Assembly (NCBI RefSeq): GCF_900103535.1
Contig: NZ_FNHQ01000011.1
Location: forward strand, 1-64,000
Length of the DNA: 64,000 nt
DNA from: Megasphaera paucivorans
GTDB taxonomy: Bacteria > Bacillota > Negativicutes > Veillonellales > Megasphaeraceae
Direction of reading: 5' to 3'
Shown: positions 1-62,310 of the stretch, in pieces
How the letters are laid out: every line of letters starts with the position of its first letter
Numbering within the stretch: the first letter of the stretch is position 1
The notes under the pieces: model-generated
The model's input: the letters and a program-made list of their open reading frames with translations, nothing else
What the model was told of the DNA's origin: nothing
Database searches by the model: none
Program-made: the position numbers and the translations under genes

Positions 1-603
1 CGGGATATATTCATCTACCGCATCCATCAATTTCAAAATGCTGGCTTCTGCTTCCGGATCTTCTTCCAATGCCTTTAGCGCAGATCCTACGATAATAGGA
101 ATTTCATCGCCTGGAAAATCATAGCTGGAAAGAAGTTCGCGAACTTCCATTTCTACTAATTCAATCAATTCCGGATCATCTACCTGATCGGCTTTGTTCA
201 GATATACTACCATTGCCGGTACTCCTACCTGGCGGGCCAGAAGGATATGTTCACGCGTCTGCGGCATTGGGCCGTCTGCTGCGCTTACTACCAATATTGC
301 TCCATCCATCTGTGCGGCACCGGTGATCATGTTCTTTACATAATCGGCATGCCCCGGGCAGTCTACATGTGCATAATGACGCTTATCTGTTTCGTATTCT
401 ACGTGTGCTGTATTGATCGTAATACCGCGTTCACGTTCTTCTGGTGCTTTATCAATGTCAGCATACGCTTCAAACTTGGCATAGCCCTTTTTCGACAATA
501 CTTTCGTAATAGCTGCTGTCAATGTCGTTTTGCCATGGTCTACGTGTCCGATGGTTCCAATATTGACATGCGGTTTGGTTCTTTCGTATTTTTCTTTAGC
601 CAT
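1..603 (-). CDS. tuf: Elongation factor Tu, N-terminal 201 residues (cut by window edge)
   Basis: EF-Tu is the GTPase that brings aminoacyl-tRNA to the ribosome. Reading the minus strand from the ATG at 601-603 gives [20 protein letters not shown], then the P-loop GHVDHGKTT (residues 19-27), the switch I RGITI, the DCPGHADY motif and the NKAD base-recognition motif. Only the G domain is present; domains 2 and 3 lie beyond position 1. A strong ribosome-binding site (AGGAGG) is at 615-620. The gene follows five tRNA genes on the same strand, the arrangement known from the E. coli tufB operon. No frameshift is visible. Confidence 0.97.
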
Positions 604-35273: not shown

Positions 35274-36007
35274 TCACATATTGCAATATACAGGTTTATA
35301 TCCGCACAAAGCAAATAATGGCAAGGTATCATATTGCATATCTTGTGAACAGTGTACCATGGGACGAATATCAGCACAATAGGAACAATCGACAAAGCCA
35401 ACACGCTGTAAGCACTGTAAATCCCATTGCGGGCGATTTTTCTGACTAATAGAGAGATCTTTTTTTAAGTTCTCACATTCCCACAATATTTTTTTATCTA
35501 GCTTATGATGTACATTTTCTTTTTTTTCGGCTTCAGCTGCAAAATTAACAGATCCGTAATTAGAGTCAAAATTCAGCAAAATGCCCCCTGGTTTAAGAAC
35601 CCGCAGCCACTCCGTATATGCGGCTGTCACATTGGGCAGATTCCACGTTAAATTCCGTGAAACAACTACTTCAAAAGTATTACTGGCAAAATCAAGTTGC
35701 TGCGCATTGCCACATTCAAAATGGATACTCATTTCATTGATCTGCGCCGCTTGTTCTGCCTCCCGCAGCATTTTTTCTGATGAATCAATTCCCGTCACAC
35801 AGTACCCTGATTGTGCCATAAGAATAGCCAAAAAACCTGTTCCCGTTCCTACATCAAGGACACAGATGTCTTTTTTTCCGGTAAATAGGACGTTATAAAA
35901 TTTTTCCAGGCTTGTGCATCAGGTCCTGCCAATTCTACGCGCCGTATATCACCAAACTCTTTACTGCGCACATTCCAATAATTTTGTACTCGCTTATCAA
36001 ATTCCAT
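35274..36007 (-). pseudogene. Class I SAM-dependent methyltransferase split by a -1 shift at A7
   Basis: The first frame begins at ATG 36007 (GGAGG upstream, MEFDKRVQNYWNVRSKEFGD) and stops after 52 codons. The second frame carries motif I VLDVGTGTGFLA, GIDSSEKML, NLPNVTAAYTEWLRVLKPGG and runs to 35274. The two join in phase by a -1 shift exactly at the heptamer A-AAA-AAG (35870-35876), within an A7 run; the joined protein is 244 residues, normal for a UbiE-like methyltransferase. It may be a real frameshift mutation, a sequencing error in the run, or a recoded gene. It is divergent from the nickel/peptide-type importer, so the methylated product could relate to that substrate. Confidence 0.8.
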
Positions 36008-36034
36008 GCTAATCCTCCTTCAACTTTACGTACT

Positions 36035-36062
36035 ATTATACAAGAATTTTTTATTTTAACAA
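36035..36062 (-). promoter_or_regulatory. Promoter of the methyltransferase gene
   Basis: TTGTTA (36057-36062), 16 bases and TATAAT (36035-36040) on the minus strand, just before a good ribosome-binding site. Confidence 0.6.
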
Positions 36063-36109: not shown

Positions 36110-36149
36110 GATAAAAGAATATGTTTTACATAAAGGAGTTTTTATAACA

Positions 36150-37088
36150 ATGAAACATTATATACAAACCAGATTGCTCCATCTGATTCCCATACTTATA
36201 GGCATTACCTTTTTATCATTTGCACTTATGCATACAGCCTCAACGGATACAGTCGATTTACTATATGAGCAAAACGGCGGTGCTTCTCCTGCCGCAATCA
36301 CCGCTCATAAAATTGCACTCGGCTTAAATAAAGATTTTCTTGGTCAATACAGTGACTGGATTTGTAATATACTGCAGGGAAACATGGGTACTTCATTTGT
36401 ATCCGGGCAACCCGTATCATCGGTCATTATAGAAAAAATTCCTGCTACGATCGAACTGATGGTTATAGCTGTATTAATCACACTTTTTATATCAATACCG
36501 TTAGGCATGGTAACTGCTGTAAAAAAAGGCAGCTGGATGGATTATATGATTCGTTTTTCAGCTTTTACCGGCAATGCTTTGCCTGATTTCTTCATCGGTT
36601 TGCTGCTCCTTTATTTTTTTGCTGTTAAAATACCTGTTTTTTCTTTTTTGAATACTGACAGCAATACGGCTCCTATACTTCCCGCCCTGACACTGGCAAT
36701 TGCAATGAGTGCTAAATATACGCGGCAAATACGCGGTATTCTGCTGGAGGAACTGCATAAACCGTATATACAGGCAGCTCGCATACGAGGCGTACCTTAT
36801 TTCTATATTCTTACTCATTATGTATTGCGTTCTGTTTTAGCTCCACTGCTGGCACTTCTGGGAGTATCTGTCGGTTCTCTGCTGGGAGGCGCCGCTATCG
36901 TCGAATCTATTTTCCTCTGGGACGGTATCGGAAAACTTGCCGTAGATGCCATCGTTATGCGCGATTATCCTATTATTCAAGCCTATGTGATTTGGATGTC
37001 TCTTATCTACGTCCTTATTAATTTAGCAGTTGATATACTTTGCTGTTTTATTGATCCTCGCATCACGATTCATGAGGAGGGACATTAA
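36150..37088 (+). CDS. ABC importer permease 1 (NikB/DppB family)
   Basis: The 312-residue membrane protein starts MKHYIQTRLLHLIPILIGIT, the typical DppB/NikB first helix, with about six helices and the EAA loop in ARIRGVPYFYILTHYVLRS. AAAGGAG lies just before the ATG at 36150; the longer upstream reading is not supported. It is the first of five genes for a nickel/peptide/opine-type importer. Confidence 0.9.
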   Translation: MKHYIQTRLLHLIPILIGITFLSFALMHTASTDTVDLLYEQNGGASPAAITAHKIALGLNKDFLGQYSDWICNILQGNMGTSFVSGQPVSSVIIEKIPATIELMVIAVLITLFISIPLGMVTAVKKGSWMDYMIRFSAFTGNALPDFFIGLLLLYFFAVKIPVFSFLNTDSNTAPILPALTLAIAMSAKYTRQIRGILLEELHKPYIQAARIRGVPYFYILTHYVLRSVLAPLLALLGVSVGSLLGGAAIVESIFLWDGIGKLAVDAIVMRDYPIIQAYVIWMSLIYVLINLAVDILCCFIDPRITIHEEGH

Positions 37089-37089
37089 G

Positions 37090-37899
37090 ATGATACACAC
37101 TGCTAAAAATTGTCGTTTTTTTACTCTTTTGTTACTGATTACCGCCGGACTTCTTTTTTCATTGGCAGCCGAATATATCCTCCCGTTTGATGCTTATAGT
37201 CAAAATTTATTGCAAGCGTTGCAACCACCAAGCGCGGCTCACCTGCTTGGTACTGATCGTTTCGGCAGAGACATGCTGGCTCGTACAATTGCTGGTGCTA
37301 AAATAACAGTATTCACCGCATTGATTATAACTTTTCTGGCAAGTTCTTTAGGATCTCTCATCGGTCTGTTTTGCGGATATCATCGCAACCGCCTAGTCAC
37401 AATTCTTTTACGTCTTACGGATGTATTTTTAGCTTTTCCGTCCATGGTTTTTGCTATTGCTGCCGCTGGATTACTGGGTGGAGGTACGTTTAATGCAGCT
37501 GCGGCTATTATGCTTGTTTCCTGGCCGAAATACACCCGTCTGGTACGTACGCAAACACTACCTTTACGGCAGACAGAATATATAGAGGCCGCCCGCATGA
37601 GCGGTTCGTCTTCTTGGCAAATTATGTTCTTTCATATTTTACCCGTCATTGTCGGTCCCATTTGTATTACAGCAGCACTCGATATCGGTACCATTATTAC
37701 TGAAATTGCAGGTCTGTCATTTTTAGGATTGGGAACTGCACCTCCAGCCGCAGAATGGGGTTCGATGATGAGCGGAGCTCGTAATTTATTGCAAACAGCA
37801 CCTTGGACTATTTTTGCTCCTGGTATTGCCATATTTATCACAGTTTCTTTATTTCAGTTATTCGCAGATTCTCTGCGTGATTTTTTTGATATCCATTAA
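37090..37899 (+). CDS. ABC importer permease 2 (NikC/DppC family)
   Basis: The 269-residue protein has the DppC hallmark HLLGTDRFGRDMLARTI near residue 55, followed by five helices and the EAA loop IEAARMSGSSSWQIMFFHILP. GAGGAGGG supports the ATG at 37090, one base after the previous stop. It forms a heterodimeric channel with the preceding permease. Confidence 0.9.
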   Translation: MIHTAKNCRFFTLLLLITAGLLFSLAAEYILPFDAYSQNLLQALQPPSAAHLLGTDRFGRDMLARTIAGAKITVFTALIITFLASSLGSLIGLFCGYHRNRLVTILLRLTDVFLAFPSMVFAIAAAGLLGGGTFNAAAAIMLVSWPKYTRLVRTQTLPLRQTEYIEAARMSGSSSWQIMFFHILPVIVGPICITAALDIGTIITEIAGLSFLGLGTAPPAAEWGSMMSGARNLLQTAPWTIFAPGIAIFITVSLFQLFADSLRDFFDIH

Positions 37900-37912
37900 G
37901 CGAGGTATTTAT

Positions 37913-39460
37913 ATGAACAAAAAAACTATTTTTTTTACTGCTGCATTAGGAATTATGTTACTTTTATCTGGTTGCAGCCAAAATAATTCTGCAACAACTT
38001 CCCCCCACAGTGAAAAAATATTTCACTACGGCACTATGGCATATGGAACAGCCATGCAGGATGCCGGAATAAATCCTCATGATACATACTGCGGCTGGAG
38101 TACTGTCCGCTATGGCATTGGTGAAACATTGTTCCGTTTCAACAAAGAAATGAAAATTGAACCATGGCTGGCCGAATCTGCTAACCAACTAGATGATTAT
38201 ACGGTAAAAATTACTCTACGCAATGATATTACGTTTTCTAACGGCAAAAAAGTGACTGGGAATGATGTAAAAACATGTTTGGAAGATTTATTGAAAAAAA
38301 ACGATCGTGCTCCGCATGATTTAAAAATCAAAAACATTATCGCAGACGGACAAACGGTAACCATTCAATCTTCTGAAAAAGTGCCCGCTTTACTTCATTA
38401 TCTAGCTGATCCCTATGCAGCGATCATTGACATGACAGCGGGAGAAAAAGATCGAATTGTCGTGGGTACGGGACCTTATGTCGCAGAAAAAGTAACAGAC
38501 ACCGAAATTGATTTAAAGAAAAACGCTCATTATTGGGGAAAAGTGCAACCAAAATTAGATAAGATTATTGTCCGCAGCATTACAGACGGAGATGCGCTTT
38601 CAATGGCGATGCAAAGTGGGGAACTAGACGCTGCACAAGGTCTTCCTTATGCCAGTTTATCAAATTTTCAAGATACCAATAAATATAAAATCAATTCTGC
38701 CGCGACCTCCCGTGTATATCAAGCACTCATGAATTACAGGACCCCGGTTCTTCAAAATAACAACGTCCGCAAAGCTATTGCTATGGCAATTAATAAAGAC
38801 CAATTTGTATCTGTACTATTAAATGGAAATGGCGTACCCGCCATAGGTGCCTTTCCTGACAATATGCCCTTTGGGCGCGGGCTTAAGGCTGCCCCGTATG
38901 ATCCGGAAGCAGCACGCCGTCTGTTAGCACAAGCCGGTTACACAGAACGTGATGCTGACGGTTATGTATTAAAAAACGGGAAACCACTGACACTGCGCTG
39001 GCTTACCTACACCTCTCGGCAGGAATTGCCTCTTCTTGCGGAATATGCGCAATCAGCCTTAAAAGAAATTGGTATTAAGTTAGAGGTAAATGCTACCGAT
39101 AATTATAAGGACTTTCTAAAACGAAACGAATTTGATATATATGCCAAGGCCATTGTCACTGCTCCCACAGGAGATCCTGAATATTATTTTACCTCTAATG
39201 TCATGTCTGATTCACCTTATAATAACGGAGCATATAATAATCCCGATGTAGACCACCTCTGCGATCAGCTGCGCAATACATTTGACACTAACAAAAGAAA
39301 TGAATTAGCAATCCAGATCCAGCAACATATTCTTGATGATAACGCAATTATTTACACGGCATTTTTAAAAATGTCTTTTGTTATGAAAAAAAATGTAACT
39401 GGATTAGAAGCACATCCCTCAGACTACTATGAAATAACCCCTGAATTAGATATAAACTAA
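37913..39460 (+). CDS. ABC importer substrate-binding lipoprotein (NikA/CntA-like, SBP_bac_5)
   Basis: The 515-residue lipoprotein (lipobox LLLSGC) has the SBP family 5 fold: LAESANQLDDYTVKITLR, VVGTGPYVAEK, VRKAIAMAINKD, YDPEAARRLLAQAGY. The N-terminal NPHDTYCGWSTVRYGIGETLF is the form seen in nickel/metallophore binding relatives such as NikA and CntA rather than in oligopeptide OppA. It starts at 37913 after GAGG. Whether it carries free Ni, a Ni-chelate or a peptide is not decided by sequence. Confidence 0.85.
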   Translation: MNKKTIFFTAALGIMLLLSGCSQNNSATTSPHSEKIFHYGTMAYGTAMQDAGINPHDTYCGWSTVRYGIGETLFRFNKEMKIEPWLAESANQLDDYTVKITLRNDITFSNGKKVTGNDVKTCLEDLLKKNDRAPHDLKIKNIIADGQTVTIQSSEKVPALLHYLADPYAAIIDMTAGEKDRIVVGTGPYVAEKVTDTEIDLKKNAHYWGKVQPKLDKIIVRSITDGDALSMAMQSGELDAAQGLPYASLSNFQDTNKYKINSAATSRVYQALMNYRTPVLQNNNVRKAIAMAINKDQFVSVLLNGNGVPAIGAFPDNMPFGRGLKAAPYDPEAARRLLAQAGYTERDADGYVLKNGKPLTLRWLTYTSRQELPLLAEYAQSALKEIGIKLEVNATDNYKDFLKRNEFDIYAKAIVTAPTGDPEYYFTSNVMSDSPYNNGAYNNPDVDHLCDQLRNTFDTNKRNELAIQIQQHILDDNAIIYTAFLKMSFVMKKNVTGLEAHPSDYYEITPELDIN

Positions 39461-39476
39461 GGAAGTATACCTAACA

Positions 39477-40241
39477 ATGTCTACCATATTATCGTTTCAA
39501 GACGTAACTGTCACCAATGGAAATAGAATCTTATTAGATGCGCTCCGATTTACTGTCTGTAAAGGAGAAATTCTTGTTATTGTCGGTGAATCAGGAAGCG
39601 GCAAAACAACACTGTTAAAAGCTGCCAGCGGTATGATTTCACCTCCACTGCAGCTACTGGGAGAGGTTTGTTACAAGGGACATACATTGCAGTCATCCGA
39701 CTGGCAAAAAATATACGGGTATGAATTGTCGATACTATTTCAAAATGCATTATCTTCTTTTTGTCCTGTACAAACCATCCAAACTCAATTATGGGACGCC
39801 GTACGTCTTACAGGGAAAATGAATCATTCGGAATTTACGGAAATTGTAAAAAAACGTGCCGTAATGCTAGGACTTCCCGAGGAAAGTCTACACAAGTATC
39901 CGATTACGTTTTCCGGTGGCATGATTCAAAGAGCTGAACTTTTATTCCCCCTTATTATGCCTCCTCATCTGCTGCTGGCGGATGAACCAACATCTGCAGT
40001 GGACAGTTTAACACAACAAAAAATTGCGGATGCACTACTGCGTCTGCGCCGTTATCATCAAACGGCGATTATCTTTGTTACACATGATATCCGCTTGGCT
40101 CGTTATATGGCAGACACACTGCTTGTTCTCAAGCAAGGTCATTTGATCGAATACGGCAAAGCCAGCAGTGTGATCGGAAATCCACAACAACCGTATACAA
40201 AAGAGTTGTTGTTCTTGGCCGGAATACGAAAGGACTTCTAA
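39477..40241 (+). CDS. ABC importer ATPase 1 (NikD/DppD family)
   Basis: The 254-residue ATPase has Walker A GESGSGKTT, signature TFSGGMIQRAE, Walker B LLLADEPTSAVDS and THDIRLAR. It is shorter than DppD (about 330) and lacks the C-terminal oligopeptide/dipeptide cluster-binding extension, fitting NikD-type proteins. Confidence 0.9.
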   Translation: MSTILSFQDVTVTNGNRILLDALRFTVCKGEILVIVGESGSGKTTLLKAASGMISPPLQLLGEVCYKGHTLQSSDWQKIYGYELSILFQNALSSFCPVQTIQTQLWDAVRLTGKMNHSEFTEIVKKRAVMLGLPEESLHKYPITFSGGMIQRAELLFPLIMPPHLLLADEPTSAVDSLTQQKIADALLRLRRYHQTAIIFVTHDIRLARYMADTLLVLKQGHLIEYGKASSVIGNPQQPYTKELLFLAGIRKDF

Positions 40242-40242
40242 T

Positions 40243-40983
40243 ATGCTGCTCACTGTTAAAAATTTAACAAAAACGTATTATCAATATAAACCGATACAAG
40301 CGTTAGATCACATTTCTTTCCAGATGGATGCCGGAGAAATAATTGCTGTAATCGGTGAAAGCGGTTCAGGCAAAAGCACGTTAGCACAATGTTTATGTCG
40401 TTTTATAAATAGCGACGAGGGTGAAATTTTTTTTGATGGACAAGATATCACTCATATTTCTGAACAACACTGCAAAAAAATATATAGCCAGATGCAAATG
40501 GTTTTTCAAAATCCCATTGAATCCTTTCATCCACGCAAAACCTTGCGAAAAAGTATCATTGCCGGACCTCAAAATTTTCATATTCATATAAGTCAAGCAG
40601 CATGGCATCAACTTGTCGAAGAAGTACAACTGAATACTTCTTTTTTAGACCGTTATCCCCATCAAATCAGTGGAGGAGAATGCCAACGAGCAGCATTACT
40701 ACGGGCATTATGCATTAATCCAAAGCTTCTTGTTTGTGACGAAGTAACCAGTGCGCTCGATGTAAGCACACAAGGAAAAATTGCAGACCTTATCAAAAGC
40801 ATATGCTGCAGCCATCACATTGCATGTCTTTTCATTACACATGATCTTTGTCTAGCCCGCTGGATCAGCACTAAAACGATGGTACTGCATAATGGCAGGC
40901 TAATTGAAAACGGTCCTACAGAGAAAATTTTTACAAATCCGCAGGAAAACTACACAAAAGAATTATTATCTTCACGTATATAA
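40243..40983 (+). CDS. ABC importer ATPase 2 (NikE/DppF family)
   Basis: The 246-residue ATPase starts one base after the previous stop. It has GESGSGKST, QISGGECQRAALLRAL, LLVCDEVTSALDVS (Val for the usual Pro in DEPT) and THDLCLAR. It completes the two-SBP-free set permease-permease-SBP-ATPase-ATPase. Confidence 0.9.
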   Translation: MLLTVKNLTKTYYQYKPIQALDHISFQMDAGEIIAVIGESGSGKSTLAQCLCRFINSDEGEIFFDGQDITHISEQHCKKIYSQMQMVFQNPIESFHPRKTLRKSIIAGPQNFHIHISQAAWHQLVEEVQLNTSFLDRYPHQISGGECQRAALLRALCINPKLLVCDEVTSALDVSTQGKIADLIKSICCSHHIACLFITHDLCLARWISTKTMVLHNGRLIENGPTEKIFTNPQENYTKELLSSRI

Positions 40984-43192: not shown

Positions 43193-44134
43193 TTGAAACG
43201 CATAGTATATGCCTTACTATTTATTTTTTCTCTGTTTCTATTAACTTCCTGTACACTAGAAAAGGCCCCCTTTTCGGAAGCCTCCTCAAATAACCAAAAA
43301 TTGCAAGTTGTCGTTTCGTTTAATGCCATGCGCGAATTAGCAGAAGCTATAGGCGGAAATAAAATAGAAATTAAAACTATCATCCCCGACGGTGTAGAGC
43401 CGCACGATTTTGAGCCTAAAGCATCTGATGTAACAGCACTTTCCACTGCCTCTGTTTTTATTATCAATGGATTTGGTATGGAACAATCATGGGCGGAAAA
43501 AGCAATTAAAACCGCAGGAAACAAAAACTTGCTGTTCGTCATTGCCTCAAATGGAGCCACCCCCATTTATGATACTGCCGCTTCCGCTTTTTGGAATAGC
43601 CAATCTCAGCGTCACGACATAGATCCACATATCTGGCTTAGTCTACAAGGAGCCAAATGGGAAGCCAAGAATATCCATAACGCGTTCATAAAAGCAGACC
43701 CGGCAAATAAAGCGTACTACGATGCGAACTATGATGCGTTTTCCGCCAAGATAGATTATTTGTATACCGACTATAAAACAAAATTCGACCAAAGTCCGTC
43801 CAAGGTATTTGTTACTGGTCACGCTGCGTTTTCTTATATGGCACGTGACTTCGGGCTGCAGCAGAACAGCCTGGAAAATGTTTTTGCCTCTGGTGAACCA
43901 AGTGCCCGCCGCCTAAAAGAACTTGCTGATTTTTGCTTAAATCATCATATCTCAACAATTTTTGTAGAAGATATGGAAAGTCCCAAAATTTCCCAGACAC
44001 TCGCACACGAAGTAGGCGCTAACGTAGAAGGTATTTATACATTAGAAAGTTCCAACGGCAGCAAAACGTATTTACAAACACAAAAGGAAAATTTAGAAAA
44101 AATATATCAAAGCCTATCCACCGGTCATTTATAA
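43193..44134 (+). CDS. znuA: Zinc (Zn/Mn)-binding lipoprotein
   Basis: The 313-residue cluster A-I binding protein has lipobox FLLTSC, then metal ligands in GVEPHDFEP, DIDPHIWLS, FVTGHAAFSYMARDFGL and the acidic ligand segment FVEDMESPKISQ. It lacks the long His-rich loop of ZnuA, but pairing with a zur-like gene favours zinc. The start is TTG with GAAGGGA upstream. Its last ten bases overlap the end of the convergent RND gene. Confidence 0.9.
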   Translation: MKRIVYALLFIFSLFLLTSCTLEKAPFSEASSNNQKLQVVVSFNAMRELAEAIGGNKIEIKTIIPDGVEPHDFEPKASDVTALSTASVFIINGFGMEQSWAEKAIKTAGNKNLLFVIASNGATPIYDTAASAFWNSQSQRHDIDPHIWLSLQGAKWEAKNIHNAFIKADPANKAYYDANYDAFSAKIDYLYTDYKTKFDQSPSKVFVTGHAAFSYMARDFGLQQNSLENVFASGEPSARRLKELADFCLNHHISTIFVEDMESPKISQTLAHEVGANVEGIYTLESSNGSKTYLQTQKENLEKIYQSLSTGHL

Positions 44135-47100
44135 CGTCTTACTACGTTTTCAACAACGACAAATAATATAGGTATAAGGAATATTCCTATGGCAGTTGCC
44201 GCCAACATTCCCCCAACAACAGCCGTTCCCATAGAGGTACGTGCCCCCGCACCTGCCCCAGACGCCAGCATAAGAGGCAGACAACCAATAATAAAAGCGA
44301 GTGAAGTCATAATAATCGGGCGTAACCTCAACTGGGCCGCTTCAATGGCAGCTTGCTCTAATTTCATGCCTTGATCAACTCGTACTTTTGCAAATTCTAC
44401 GATTAAAATAGCATTTTTAGCAGCCAGACCAATCAGCATAATCAACCCAATTTGCATATAAATACTATTTTCCTGTCCCGTGAGATATTGGAACAAAAAC
44501 GCGCCAAAAACTCCTGAGGGAATAGCCAATAACACAGCAAATGGCACACTCCAGCTTTCATATAAAGCTGCCAGACAGAGAAACGCAAACAAAAGCGCCA
44601 TCCCAAACACAATCGGAGTTCGCCCTGCCGATTGCTGTTCTTCCCGGCTTTGACCAGTCCATTCATAGGTATATCCATCCGGCAACGTTTCTTTTGCGAC
44701 TTCGGACAATGCCTCCATAGCTTGTCCTGAACTGTAGCCACCGGCTTGTGTCCCGCTTATTTTAGCTGCTTGTACACCATTAAATCGAGTAATAACAGCC
44801 GGTGCCAGTACTTTTTTCATTGTAACCAGTGTGTTAAGCGGTATCATATCTCCATTACTACTTTTGACAAATAAGTAACGCAGGGCATCGGTATTACTTC
44901 TATACGGACTTTCCGCTTGAACGATAACCTTGTAGTTCCGTCCAAATCTCGTAAAATCATTCACTTCATCAGCACCTAAAAAAACCTGCAAAGTGGAAAA
45001 AATATCATCTACCGATACTCCCAGAATCTCTGCTTTCTGGCGATCTACATCAAATCGATAACTAGGTGTTGATGTACTGAAATTAGAAGATACCGCTCCA
45101 ATTTCCTTACGTTTTTTAGCCTGTTCAACAAATTGCGTCGCTACTTTATCTAAATCAGTCAGTGTTCCTCCATTTCGATCTTCTATCATAAGTGAAAATC
45201 CGCCGACTGAACCCAATCCGGGCAGTGCCGGTGGATTAAATACCGCTACATTTCCTTCCAAGAAAGATGACGCATCGGCTAATGTATCTTGTATCTCCGA
45301 TTTGACTTGTAATGCAGGAGAAGTTCGCTCTGACCAAGGTGTTAATGCTACAAAAAGTTCTCCCGTATTTGTTTTGGAAGATCCTGTCAAAAGATCTGTT
45401 CCCGCCAAGGTCATAACTTGTGTAACTCCCGGCTGTTTTTGAATCATTTCAGAAATATGATCCATTGCATGAATCGTACGGGTCAAACTAGCTCCCTCCG
45501 GCAGCGTAACTCCCACCATATAATATCCTTGATCTTCTTCTGGTACTAAGGAGCTGGGAACAACGCGATATAGTAATCCGGTAACAGCCAAGATACCCAC
45601 TAAAAACAACATACACAGTTTCGCTTTAGGGATTAAATGCTGTATTTCTTTGCCATAGCGAATCGTAGTCATTCTTAAATATTCATTAAAAGATTTAAAA
45701 AATCGCTTCAATATACTCTGCTTCTCTGATTCACGAACCGGTTTCAAGATAAGTGCGCAAAGTGCCGGTGTAAGTGATAATGCTACAAATGCCGATAATC
45801 CCATAGAAATAGCAATAGTCAAAGCAAACTGCTTATACAATACCCCCATAATGCCGCCAAAAAATGCTACGGGTAAAAATACCGAAGCCAAAACAAACGC
45901 GATTGCAATAACCGGTCCGGATACTTCCTTCATGGCTTGTACCGTTGCTTCCCGTGGACTCATGTGATCGTCTTTAATATGTCGTTCAACAGCTTCAATA
46001 ACTACAATTGCATCATCCACCACCAACCCAATCGCCAAGACCATGGCAAATAATGTCAGTGTATTAATTGTAAATCCTAGAAACGTAAAAGCTGTAAATG
46101 TACCAATCAACGATACCGGTACTGCCAAAAGAGGAATAAGCGTAGCTCTCCAGCTTTGTAAAAATAAATATACTACTAAAACAACGAGTGCCAGTGCTTC
46201 TAAAAATGTCCGGCATACTTCGAGAATAGATTCATAAATAAACTTAGTATTATCAATGGTAATGGCATAATCCATATCAGTCGGAAATTTATCCTTGGCA
46301 TTTTTCAATAACTCTTTGATTTTCCCAATTGTATCCAATGAATTAGCATCGCTGTTTAATTTAATAGAAAAGCCAGCACTGGCATGCCCATTTTGTTTAG
46401 AATCATAAATATAATCCCGGCTTCCCATTTCGACCTTGGCAATATCTTTCAACCGTACCGCCGCACCCGTTGGTTTTGCCATAATAATAATATTGCCAAA
46501 CTCTTTTGCATCTATAAGTCTGCCTTGCACACGTACGGTATACTCAAAAGCCTGTTTTGTTTCTGTCGGCATTTTTCCCAAAGAACCTGCAGGGGCTTGG
46601 ACATTTTGACTTTCAATAGCTGAAATAACATCACTCGTCGACACACCCAGTTTCGCCATTTTTTCCGGCTGAAGCCATACCCGCATGCTGTAATCCGCAC
46701 CAAATGCAGACACTTCACCGACACCTTTAATGCGTTTAATGTCATCGAGCAAATAAAGATTTCCGTAATTTTCTAAAAATTTAGCATCATATGTATTATT
46801 TGGAGAATACAAGGTAAACGTCAGTGCGCTATCATCTGACGATTTCGTTGTGGAAATCCCCTGCGTTTGAACCGAATCAGGCAAAGATGCCTTAACCTCC
46901 GATACGCGGTTTTGTGTTTGAACAGAGTCCATATCCGAATTTGTCCCAGTTTCAAATTGCACATTCAGTGTATAAAACCCCGTATCCGTACTCGTAGACG
47001 TCATAGACTCCATACCATCTACCCCATTGACTTGTTCTTCTATTACTTGTGCTACGGTGTCATTAATAACCTCGGCATTAGCACCTTGGTATTTGGTACT

Positions 47101-47235
47101 GACGGAAATCGTAGGTGGGGAAATATTAGGATATTGCGCCACCGACAATCCCACTGCCGATACAATTCCCAAAAGCACGATAATGATAGACACTACAATA
47201 GCAAAAATAGGTCGATTTATAAAAAATTTAGCCAT
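44125..47235 (-). CDS. RND efflux pump inner-membrane subunit 2 (AcrB/HAE1 family)
   Basis: The 1036-residue proton-driven pump starts MAKFFINRPIFAIVVSII. It has the twelve-helix RND plan with proton-relay residues in GLVVDDAIVVIEAVERH (Asp pair of helix 4) and GLAAKNAILIVEFAK (Lys of helix 10), and the AcrB-type periplasmic loops. GAGGAG directly before 47235 sets the start. It is a close paralogue of the upstream pump gene (53-base gap). Confidence 0.93.
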   Translation of the reverse strand: MAKFFINRPIFAIVVSIIIVLLGIVSAVGLSVAQYPNISPPTISVSTKYQGANAEVINDTVAQVIEEQVNGVDGMESMTSTSTDTGFYTLNVQFETGTNSDMDSVQTQNRVSEVKASLPDSVQTQGISTTKSSDDSALTFTLYSPNNTYDAKFLENYGNLYLLDDIKRIKGVGEVSAFGADYSMRVWLQPEKMAKLGVSTSDVISAIESQNVQAPAGSLGKMPTETKQAFEYTVRVQGRLIDAKEFGNIIIMAKPTGAAVRLKDIAKVEMGSRDYIYDSKQNGHASAGFSIKLNSDANSLDTIGKIKELLKNAKDKFPTDMDYAITIDNTKFIYESILEVCRTFLEALALVVLVVYLFLQSWRATLIPLLAVPVSLIGTFTAFTFLGFTINTLTLFAMVLAIGLVVDDAIVVIEAVERHIKDDHMSPREATVQAMKEVSGPVIAIAFVLASVFLPVAFFGGIMGVLYKQFALTIAISMGLSAFVALSLTPALCALILKPVRESEKQSILKRFFKSFNEYLRMTTIRYGKEIQHLIPKAKLCMLFLVGILAVTGLLYRVVPSSLVPEEDQGYYMVGVTLPEGASLTRTIHAMDHISEMIQKQPGVTQVMTLAGTDLLTGSSKTNTGELFVALTPWSERTSPALQVKSEIQDTLADASSFLEGNVAVFNPPALPGLGSVGGFSLMIEDRNGGTLTDLDKVATQFVEQAKKRKEIGAVSSNFSTSTPSYRFDVDRQKAEILGVSVDDIFSTLQVFLGADEVNDFTRFGRNYKVIVQAESPYRSNTDALRYLFVKSSNGDMIPLNTLVTMKKVLAPAVITRFNGVQAAKISGTQAGGYSSGQAMEALSEVAKETLPDGYTYEWTGQSREEQQSAGRTPIVFGMALLFAFLCLAALYESWSVPFAVLLAIPSGVFGAFLFQYLTGQENSIYMQIGLIMLIGLAAKNAILIVEFAKVRVDQGMKLEQAAIEAAQLRLRPIIMTSLAFIIGCLPLMLASGAGAGARTSMGTAVVGGMLAATAIGIFLIPILFVVVENVVRRYK

Positions 47236-47288
47236 GTTTCTCCTCATATTTGCTTCATCACGTTAAATTTGAATTTTTATATATTTTT

Positions 47289-50200
47289 TTATTGTTTATG
47301 CCAAAAGTGGAATTTCCCCGTTTTCTTTTCAATAACTACAAATAAAGTAGGAATGAGAAAAATTCCGATTGTTGTTGCCGCAAACATGCCACCGACGACA
47401 GCAGTTCCCATAGAGGTACGTGCTCCGGCTCCAGCACCACTTGCCAACATCAAAGGCAAGCAGCCAATAATAAATGTCAATGAAGTCATAATAATGGGAC
47501 GCACTCGTAACTGTGCCGCTTCTACCGCAGCCTGGGATGCCTTCATTCCCTGATCCACGCGTATTTTGGCAAATTCCACAATAAGGATTGCATTTTTAGC
47601 CGCTAAGCCGACAAGCATTACCAATCCAATTTGCATGTATATGCTGTCCTCCAGACCACGCAGATATTGAAAGAAAAAAGCTCCAAATATACCCGCCGGT
47701 ATAGCTAATAAAACAGCAAAAGGAACACTCCAACTCTCATATAAAGCAGCTAAGCAAAGAAAAGCAAACAGAAAGGCAAGCCCAAATAAAATAGGAGCTT
47801 TAGATGAAGATTTTTGTTCTTCTCGACTTTGTCCGGACCATTCATACGTATACCCTTGCGGCAGCGTCTGAGCTGCAACTTCTTCTAAGGCTTTCATTGC
47901 CTGCCCGGAACTGTATCCAGGCGCCTGACTTCCATTAATTCGTGCCGCCTTTACGCCGTTGAAGCGGCTGATTACAGAAGGGGCATACACCTTCTTAGGA
48001 GTAATCAACGTATTGAGCGGCACCATATCACCATTTGCATTTTTTACATGCAAATACTGTAAAGCATTCACATCTCCGCGAAACATACCATCTGCTTGAA
48101 CAGCCACTTTATAGTTACGTCCAAACAGGGTAAAATCATTCACTTCATTTCCTCCCAGAAAAACCTGCAATGTAGAGAATATATCACTGATAGATACACC
48201 TAATACTTTGGCCTTATCCCTATCTATGTCATATTCGTATCCCGGTGTGCTGGCTTTAAAGTTAGAAGAAATCCGGCCAATCTCCGGTCGTTTCTGTGCC
48301 GCTGCGATAAACTGCTGCGATACAGCATCTAAATTATTCAATGTTCCACCGGCCCGATCTTCCAGCATGAGCGAAAAACCGCCAACTGCACCCAATCCCG
48401 GCAATGCTGGTGGATTAAGCGCCAATAATGTCCCCTCCTGTAAATGTCTTCCACTCATCATCGTTTTTCCTATCTCAGATTGAACACTTACATCACTGCT
48501 TTTTCGTTCTTCCCATGGCTTGAGCGAGACAAACACCACTCCGGCACTAGATTTATTACCGCCTCCCAACAAATCCATGCCAGTCAGCGCCATAACTTGA
48601 GCGACTCCCGGCTGCTGCTGTATCATTTTTGAAACCTTTTCTACCGCTTCTTTTGTACGTCCTAAGCTGGAAGCTTCTGGTAAATTTATCGCGACAATAT
48701 ACCTGCCCTGATCTTCTTCCGGTATAAAGCTAGTCGGAACTAATTTATATAAAACCCCGCTGAAAATAACTAAAAATATAAGAAAACAGATACTTAACTT
48801 AGTTTTAAGCATAGACTGACGTAGGAATATTCCATATTTTTCTATATACGCTGCAAGCTTACCATTAAATTTTTTAAAAAACCGGCCAAGTACACTTATC
48901 TCAGAAATCGGCTGATATGGTCGAAGAAGTTTTACGCATAAAGCAGGTGTCAAGGATAATGCAACTAATGCGGACAATCCCATAGAAACAACAATAGTCA
49001 AAGCAAACTGACGATATAAAATTCCTGTCATCCCTTGAAAAAACGCAACCGGTAAAAATACGGAAGTCAATACACAGGCAATAGCCACAATAGGACCCGA
49101 TACCTCTTTCATAGCCAAACAAGTGGCATCATGAGGATTTAAATGATCATATCGCATATGATGTTCTACCGCTTCTATGACAACGATAGCATCATCTACT
49201 ACTAACCCAATTGCCAAAACCAGTGCAAACAGTGTCAGCGTATTGATATTAAATCGCAAGATGATAAATGCCGCAAACGTTCCAATAAGGGATACCGGTA
49301 TCGCCAGCAGTGGAATAAGCGTAGCCCGCCAATTTTGTAAAAATAAAAAAACAATCAAAACGACCAGCATCAACGCTTCCACAAAAGTCTTACTCACTTC
49401 CAGCATAGATTCTCGAATAAACTTTGTATTATCAACAGATACAACATAATCCATATCCGGCGGAAAATCTTTTTTTGCATTTTCCAAATACGTTTTTACC
49501 TCATCAATAGACTTCAACGTATTCGCCTTGCTATTTAAAAGAATTGCAAAACCAGCACTTTCATTACCATTTTGTTCGGTAATGTTAGTATAGTTTTCAC
49601 TACCCATTTCAATTTTTGCAATATCTTTCAAATAAACAATGGACCCATCTGATTTTGCCAAAACAATTAATTTACCAAATTGAGCTGCATCAGACAATCG
49701 TCCTTTTATACGCGCTGTAAATTGAAGTGCTTGTTTGTCATCCGCCGGCCGAGCTCCTAAGGCACCTGTCGGTGCCTCTAAATTTTGTTTTTGTATGGCT
49801 GCTACCACATCGCTAGTAGATACTCCTAATTTTGCCATTTTATCCGGTTGGAGCCATACACGCATACTATAATCAGCACCAAAGGCATTGACATCACCAA
49901 CTCCATCAATGCGCTTCAACCCATCAACAAGGTATAAACTGCCATAATTTTTCAAAAATTTTGCATCATAGGTATGATTGGGAGAATATAATTGAAAAAC
50001 AAAAGCCATATCTTCCGATGAATTTCTGCTAGCAATTCCTTTTTGTTGTACCGTTGTTGGCAAAGAAGGCTCTGCTGACGACACTCGATCTTGGACTTGT
50101 ACAGCTGCCACATTGGGATCTTTGCCCGCTTCAAATTGAATCCGCAGTTTATACGACCCATCATCGGCCACAGTTCCCGTCATATTGTCCATTCCGTCAA

Positions 50201-50414
50201 CACCATTTACCTCTTGTTCTATGACCTGTGCCACAGAATCATTGACAACCTCGGCATTGGCACCCTGATAGGAAGTACTGATAGAAACAGTCGGCGGCGT
50301 TATTTTAGGATATTGTGCAATAGACAAATTCAAAATAGATACAATTCCCAAAAGAACAATAATAACGGACAGTACAATAGCAAAAACAGGCCGTTCAATA
50401 AAAAATTTAGCCAT
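47289..50414 (-). CDS. RND efflux pump inner-membrane subunit 1 (AcrB/HAE1 family)
   Basis: The 1041-residue pump starts MAKFFIERPVFAIVLSVIIV and shows the same Asp-Asp and Lys relay motifs (GLVVDDAIVVIEAVEHH, GLAAKNAILIVEFAK). The ends (GAGAGARTSMGTAVVGGM) match subunit 2, showing recent or strongly constrained duplication. It follows the membrane-fusion protein gene by 19 bases. The two pumps could form alternate homotrimers or a mixed trimer as in MdtBC. Confidence 0.93.
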   Translation of the reverse strand: MAKFFIERPVFAIVLSVIIVLLGIVSILNLSIAQYPKITPPTVSISTSYQGANAEVVNDSVAQVIEQEVNGVDGMDNMTGTVADDGSYKLRIQFEAGKDPNVAAVQVQDRVSSAEPSLPTTVQQKGIASRNSSEDMAFVFQLYSPNHTYDAKFLKNYGSLYLVDGLKRIDGVGDVNAFGADYSMRVWLQPDKMAKLGVSTSDVVAAIQKQNLEAPTGALGARPADDKQALQFTARIKGRLSDAAQFGKLIVLAKSDGSIVYLKDIAKIEMGSENYTNITEQNGNESAGFAILLNSKANTLKSIDEVKTYLENAKKDFPPDMDYVVSVDNTKFIRESMLEVSKTFVEALMLVVLIVFLFLQNWRATLIPLLAIPVSLIGTFAAFIILRFNINTLTLFALVLAIGLVVDDAIVVIEAVEHHMRYDHLNPHDATCLAMKEVSGPIVAIACVLTSVFLPVAFFQGMTGILYRQFALTIVVSMGLSALVALSLTPALCVKLLRPYQPISEISVLGRFFKKFNGKLAAYIEKYGIFLRQSMLKTKLSICFLIFLVIFSGVLYKLVPTSFIPEEDQGRYIVAINLPEASSLGRTKEAVEKVSKMIQQQPGVAQVMALTGMDLLGGGNKSSAGVVFVSLKPWEERKSSDVSVQSEIGKTMMSGRHLQEGTLLALNPPALPGLGAVGGFSLMLEDRAGGTLNNLDAVSQQFIAAAQKRPEIGRISSNFKASTPGYEYDIDRDKAKVLGVSISDIFSTLQVFLGGNEVNDFTLFGRNYKVAVQADGMFRGDVNALQYLHVKNANGDMVPLNTLITPKKVYAPSVISRFNGVKAARINGSQAPGYSSGQAMKALEEVAAQTLPQGYTYEWSGQSREEQKSSSKAPILFGLAFLFAFLCLAALYESWSVPFAVLLAIPAGIFGAFFFQYLRGLEDSIYMQIGLVMLVGLAAKNAILIVEFAKIRVDQGMKASQAAVEAAQLRVRPIIMTSLTFIIGCLPLMLASGAGAGARTSMGTAVVGGMFAATTIGIFLIPTLFVVIEKKTGKFHFWHKQ

Positions 50415-61465: not shown

Positions 61466-62287
61466 CTACCACGCCGGAACAAGAACACCCGCAAATTCCT
61501 TGTCAATATAATCTTTTACTGCCTGTGACTGAAATGCTTTAACAAATTTTTTATAAGCCGGGTTATCTTTATCTGCTTCACGAGCAGCAATAATATTGAC
61601 ATACGGACTCGTATTATCTTCTACGGCAATACCATCTTTTTGGCTGTTAAGACCGGCAGAAATAGCATAGCCTGCATTAATAACAGATGCTGCTGTATCA
61701 TCCAAGGAACGAGGAAGTTGTGCTGCTTCCAATTCAATAATATGAAGATGCTTAGGATTATCCACAATATCTTGAACGGTTACCTTCGTTGGTTCTTTTC
61801 CCTTTGTCAGCGTTATCCATCCTTGTTTCTGAAGCAGCAACAATGCCCGGCCGCCGTTTGATGGATCATTAGGAATAGCAATTGTTGCTCCATCGGGTAT
61901 ATCTCCAACGGTTTTATATTTATGGGAGTATAACCCTAACGGAGCTAAATAGGTTTGTCCTATACTAACTAAATGTGTACCATTTTTTTCATTAAAAGCA
62001 TCTAAAAAAGGTTTATGCTGAAAAGAATTTAAGTCAATATCTCCACTGGCCAATGCCTGATCAGGTGTTACATAATCGGAAAAAGTTTTTACATGCACCG
62101 TCAATCCTTCTTTAGCCGCTTCTTTTGTTACCAAATCCATGATTTGTTCACTGGCACCCGGTGTAACACCAACAGTAATTTCCTTTTTTTCCTGCGAAGC
62201 AGAGTTACTTTGATTTCCACATCCTGCAAACAGGCTTGCCGCAGCAACCAGCGCAAGCGCAACAAGTACAATTTTTTTACATCTCAT
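61466..62287 (-). CDS. metQ: Methionine-binding lipoprotein MetQ (NlpA family)
   Basis: The 273-residue lipoprotein (lipobox SLFAGC) has ITVGVTPGASEQIMD, the family's ligand segments DIDLNSFQHKPFL and AIPNDPSNGGRALLLLQ, and ends AGVLVPAW. It binds methionine for a MetNI importer, whose genes are not adjacent. A SAM-I riboswitch with terminator stands directly upstream, confirming methionine regulation. AAGGAG favours the second ATG (62287). Confidence 0.94.
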   Translation of the reverse strand: MRCKKIVLVALALVAAASLFAGCGNQSNSASQEKKEITVGVTPGASEQIMDLVTKEAAKEGLTVHVKTFSDYVTPDQALASGDIDLNSFQHKPFLDAFNEKNGTHLVSIGQTYLAPLGLYSHKYKTVGDIPDGATIAIPNDPSNGGRALLLLQKQGWITLTKGKEPTKVTVQDIVDNPKHLHIIELEAAQLPRSLDDTAASVINAGYAISAGLNSQKDGIAVEDNTSPYVNIIAAREADKDNPAYKKFVKAFQSQAVKDYIDKEFAGVLVPAW

Positions 62288-62310
62288 TTTCATCTCTCCT
62301 TAATAAAATT

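Follow-up and report, generated by a model that had tools for sequence, protein, structure and literature searches.

Whether a slippery heptamer lying exactly between two reading frames marks recoding, a reversible switch or simply a lost base is the question raised by a methyltransferase gene of Megasphaera paucivorans. The window analyzed here, the whole stretch of 64,000 nucleotides from the start of contig NZ_FNHQ01000011.1, has a G+C content of 40.1% and belongs to a genome of ~2.91 Mb with 51 tRNA matches. The original prediction suggested that the break could be recoding, transcriptional slippage or phase variation rather than decay, and the gene was compared with its homologues in related genomes.

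The two halves of the gene meet at an in-phase heptamer

The gene runs on the minus strand from 36007 to 35274 and is split by one frame break into 46 + 198 codons, which joined give 244 residues, identical in length to the product of the intact relative (Table 1). The 0-frame ORF starts with ATG at 36007 and encodes a protein of 52 aa, MEFDKRVQNYWNVRSKEFGDIRRVELAGPDAQAWKNFITSYLPEKK-TSVSLM, followed by the stop codon TAG at 35851-35849. At the join, which reads CCG GAA AAA AAG, seven A's (35877-35871) precede the G at 35870, and the frames change at the heptamer A_AAA_AAG (35876-35870), which is in 0-phase. Six sense codons follow AAG before the 0-frame stop. GAC at 35870 is the first of the 198 codons of the -1 frame (DICVLDVGTGTGF...), which reaches its stop at 35276-35274. 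Coordinates and codons bore out the prediction that the two halves of a 244-residue methyltransferase meet at A_AAA_AAG in the -1 phase and that the 0-frame stop comes shortly past the heptamer. An SD-like sequence for the ribosome-binding site described earlier was also present, 6 nt before the ATG. As for the promoter, a -35/-10-like pair was found at 36062-36035, but such matches were no more frequent than in shuffled sequences.

Table 1. Coordinates of the features at and around the frame break
Feature	Coordinates	Strand	Evidence or remark
Class I SAM-dependent methyltransferase gene, interrupted	35274..36007	-	Pfam matches on downstream part; intact 244-aa sister orthologue
0-frame ORF, 52 aa, stops ahead of SAM-binding motif	35849..36007	-	
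A7-G run with in-phase A_AAA_AAG	35870..35877	-	One-base difference from sister here
-1 frame, 198 codons, remainder of methyltransferase	35274..35870	-	dN/dS 0.22 vs sister
Motif I DVGTGTG (SAM-binding loop), downstream of break	35835..35855	-	
Shine-Dalgarno-like AAGGAGG, 6 nt ahead of ATG	36014..36020	-	
Sigma-70-like promoter match TTGTTA-16-TATAAT	36035..36062	-	Consensus match only
Divergent nickel/peptide-type ABC transporter operon: two permeases, substrate-binding protein, two ATPases	36147..40983	+	NCBIfam matches

The part downstream of the break matched Pfam Methyltransf_25 (PF13649) with 83 bits (cut-off 27) and Methyltransf_11 (PF08241) with 82.7 bits (cut-off 21.2). With a profile above its curated cut-off and a glycine-rich motif I, the product is a class I SAM-dependent methyltransferase; among the NCBIfam matches listed for it, none reached an equivalog cut-off. 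No close paralogue that would replace it was found in the same genome at E <= 1e-20.

Related genomes carry the gene in one frame

The sister genome, Megasphaera sp. UW_MP_MEG2_1 (a MAG; JALCNL010000005.1, L003/L023), was the only other genome of the genus in the comparison (two genomes in all), and its contig is collinear with the window over most of 4.9-54.4 kb. Its methyltransferase has the same neighbors, the same length of 244 codons and the same Lys-Lys pair at the join, with 91% DNA identity, but forms one continuous frame. The sister reads TTA CCG AAA AAA AAG GAC ATC at the join, whereas the window reads TTA CCG GAA AAA AAG ACA TC, one base fewer. Since the Lys-Lys codons that form the heptamer are found in the unbroken gene of the sister, they predate the break. 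Relative to this intact orthologue, the one-base length difference at 35871, with truncation before motif I, is a lesion of the kind seen in pseudogenes.

Nineteen homologues from 17 further genomes were also unbroken, with quite different codons at the site, and no shift motif was found at the corresponding position in any of them. Judged from these alignments, the frame transition appears to be confined to the window genome. Programmed recoding, one of the possibilities first proposed, failed this comparison, since the sister gene has these Lys-Lys codons yet is unbroken and the 19 homologues are free of a shift site.

The gene is still constrained and carries one lesion

Compared with the sister, dN/dS was 0.22 downstream of the break and 0.18 upstream. 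The 36 neighboring genes ranged up to 0.20 (median 0.066), so that the methyltransferase stood at the top of the local range. When amino-acid changes were polarised with the relatives, 7 fell on the window branch, 11 on the branch of the intact sister and 10 were ambiguous, an approximate count because alignment row L005 is a different methyltransferase and rows L020/L021 are duplicates. The window branch showed no surplus of such changes (7 vs 11 in the sister). Nor was a second stop or frameshift found in the gene when it was set against the sister, a pattern that does not indicate relaxed selection.

Constraint and the absence of further lesions rule out old decay. The claim that the gene is not decaying stands as to old decay, and so does the claim of a gene body intact downstream of the break, which has no further lesions, is under purifying selection and retains motif I. 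Constraint without excess changes implies that the break has not yet had time to leave a trace, is not real or is somehow tolerated.

To set the break against its background, indels relative to the sister were listed over 113.6 kb of the window and other stretches, and coding breaks were classed by reading the list. By our own judgement, the methyltransferase was the one clear interior coding break in the window genome over this length, and most other indels listed were intergenic or at gene ends. The sister has a break of its own, in a homopolymer of a zinc-ribbon-type gene that is intact in the window genome (L097 near 15467 vs L112 near 4807), the T-run being T6 in the sister and T5 in the window genome.

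No stimulator of recoding was found around the heptamer

An exact dnaX-type heptamer, in phase and joining two well-conserved halves, is what one would expect if programmed -1 ribosomal frameshifting or transcriptional slippage had evolved to control the methyltransferase. The E. coli dnaX site (PMC5009743, PMC3711429) has the same heptamer in the same phase. However, no SD-like stimulator was found in the 40 nt examined upstream of the heptamer (TGCACAAGCCTGGAAAAATTTTATAACGTCCTATTTACCG), as the original prediction had already noted, and the downstream RNA folded no better than shuffles (z of -0.41, -1.02 and -0.11, for pseudoknot-free structures; a misplaced control fold, L025:1-20, was set aside). 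Unlike E. coli dnaX, the window gene has no upstream SD, no downstream hairpin signal and no conservation. In addition, the dnaX shift yields the shorter product, whereas a shift here would yield the full-length one, and the short product would be a fragment lacking the SAM motif.

The host decoding apparatus also differs. The window genome encodes two tRNA-Lys(UUU) and one tRNA-Lys(CUU), while in E. coli AAG is read by tRNA-Lys(UUU) only. Efficient A_AAA_AAG slippage in E. coli has been linked to this sole tRNA-Lys, and a second lysine tRNA is expected to pair tightly with AAG (PMC5009743). In the window genome, tRNA-Lys(CUU) would presumably make slippage of the E. coli kind less efficient at AAG. 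For transcriptional slippage, the bacterial runs cited are 9 bases long (PMC5009743), and the A7 run of the window is shorter than the ~9 A or T of such sites, which speaks against this part of the prediction. Programmed -1 frameshifting was rejected on the absence of conservation, the absence of a stimulator on either side and the tRNA set of the host. With the sister gene fused in one frame and unrelated codons in the other relatives, evolved control by either route is very improbable.

Re-initiation of the downstream part was likewise rejected. No ATG, GTG or TTG lies ahead of motif I in that frame, and its first start-like codon, TTG at 35831, is past motif I.

It is conceivable that a real deletion is rescued incidentally, with the inherited A_AAA_AAG allowing enough unprogrammed -1 slippage for a little full-length enzyme. 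The heptamer is in the right phase, the gene body is still constrained, and there is a precedent in "savior" indels, which are accompanied by weak compensatory frameshifting (PMC5009743). Even in E. coli, however, heptamers without stimulators reach at most ~10x a background of 0.055% (PMC4066793); tRNA-Lys(CUU) is present here, and a very recent break would explain the constraint equally well. We regard such rescue as quite unlikely. It is similarly unlikely that slippage at the Lys-Lys heptamer already in place sustains the function of this methyltransferase, linked to metal uptake, after a recent one-base deletion, be it at low dose or as a switch. If this were true, a recoding site would have been caught at its origin.

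In the window genome, dnaX (G000:C23, L086 around 2360) is a single frame of 656 codons that has two runs, A10 and A8-G, close to its 3' end. Since transcriptional slippage occurs at runs of 9 A's in Thermus dnaX, the gene of the window genome may merit a look.

The break probably reflects a recent deletion or a base-call error at an A-run

In-phase A_AAA_AAG occurred in 6 copies in the 18,742 codons of intact window ORFs, compared with 5.0 +/- 2.2 in synonymous shuffles, and one of the six, located in 61466-62293, has a similar context (GG-A7-GG). Any one-base deletion within an in-frame GAA AAA AAG, or immediately past it, necessarily yields the -1 phase. Heptamer and break do coincide, but this carries no information. 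Runs of at least A7 were common in the 64-kb window (44-45 on the minus and 42 on the plus strand), and the methyltransferase gene itself has four A-runs of at least seven. This case shows why a slippery heptamer found where a frame breaks says little in favor of recoding, AAA-AAG being an ordinary way to encode Lys-Lys and A-runs being prone to indels as well.

The identity of the lost base matters because a switch between A7 and A8 requires the loss of an A. The run differs at both ends, being A8-GG in the sister and G-A7-G in the window, and the outgroups do not align at the codons of the break. Loss of a G plus one substitution makes two events, and loss of an A plus two substitutions makes three. 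Going by the aligned sequences, the lost base would be either G or A, G loss costing one event fewer and A-runs deleting more often than GG.

These observations bear on phase variation, in which the run would flip between A7 (off) and an in-frame length (on) by slipped-strand mispairing, giving a mixed population. The position of the run, within the first fifth of the gene, is one favored by poly(A) tracts (PMC2831843), and the remaining coding sequence is under constraint. Listeria monocytogenes inlA offers a precedent of similar length in its reversible A6/A7 tract; there, A6 gains a base at ~5.5e-7 and A7 loses one at ~3.9e-8 (PMC2831843). Like the window gene, inlA has a short A-run near its 5' end in which one base sets the frame. 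However, within-species polymorphism and reversion were shown in Listeria, whereas the window gene is known from one genome. The run is also short and of a common kind, and its differences from the sister at both ends mean that G loss explains the pair with fewer events. Moreover, phase-variable genes do not usually encode soluble methyltransferases of the small-molecule type. On balance, phase variation is unlikely.

Another parallel is found among the frame breaks of the GeneTack study, whose authors expected homology-validated breaks restricted to a single species to be mostly sequencing errors (PMC3711429). Such singletons are expected to be either sequencing error or recent indel. The window resembles them in that its break is seen in one species and the joined product matches intact homologues, and no difference from them was found.

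The probable explanation, taken as one joint reading, is either that a single base was deleted very recently at the A-run, a mutation hotspot, or that the base calls are in error there. One base would be missing in or next to the A-run encoding the Lys-Lys pair, around codons 45-46, and ordinary translation would halt after 52 residues, ahead of the SAM-binding motif. The loss would have occurred very recently by mutation, in the strain or in its culture, or would be an artifact of base calling or assembly at the run. On this view A_AAA_AAG would not have evolved as a recoding signal; it would represent ordinary Lys codons that form an indel hotspot and, at best, slip weakly. Both the complete or nearly complete loss of function of the allele and the way it originated are inferred. 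Two observations count against a recent deletion or error, namely the dN/dS at the top of the local range and the position of the break exactly at a strong E. coli shift site. As it stands, the break is of small significance. If a second strain shared the break with the gene still constrained, the locus would become a useful natural case of the beginning of a frameshift site.

The methyltransferase is paired with a nickel/peptide-type transporter

The transporter operon divergent from the methyltransferase gave Opp2B, Opp2C, Opp5A_nikA and Cnt/Nik-type ATPases as its best NCBIfam matches, all under the curated cut-offs. The divergent pairing is kept in two relatives (L031 and L033), which suggests that the methyltransferase may act with the transported metal complex or peptide. 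In one relative (G005), the gene after the methyltransferase (L031:7728-8687) encodes a methyltransferase-like protein whose C-terminal region resembles CsoR/RicR-like metal sensors (NF052430, 59 bits, short of the cut-off of 175). An enzyme-sensor fusion of this type would be unusual.

Between 36147 and 43566, where the transporter is followed by Fur-like and zinc-transporter genes, divergence from the sister at synonymous sites was ~0.11-0.23, compared with mostly 0.3-0.5 elsewhere in the contig. This is possibly due to recombination of the metal-uptake block or to slower synonymous change. Farther along the window, two tandem genes of ~1040 codons each (44125-47247 and 47289-50414) are ~68-70% alike at the DNA level, and the duplication is present in the sister as well.
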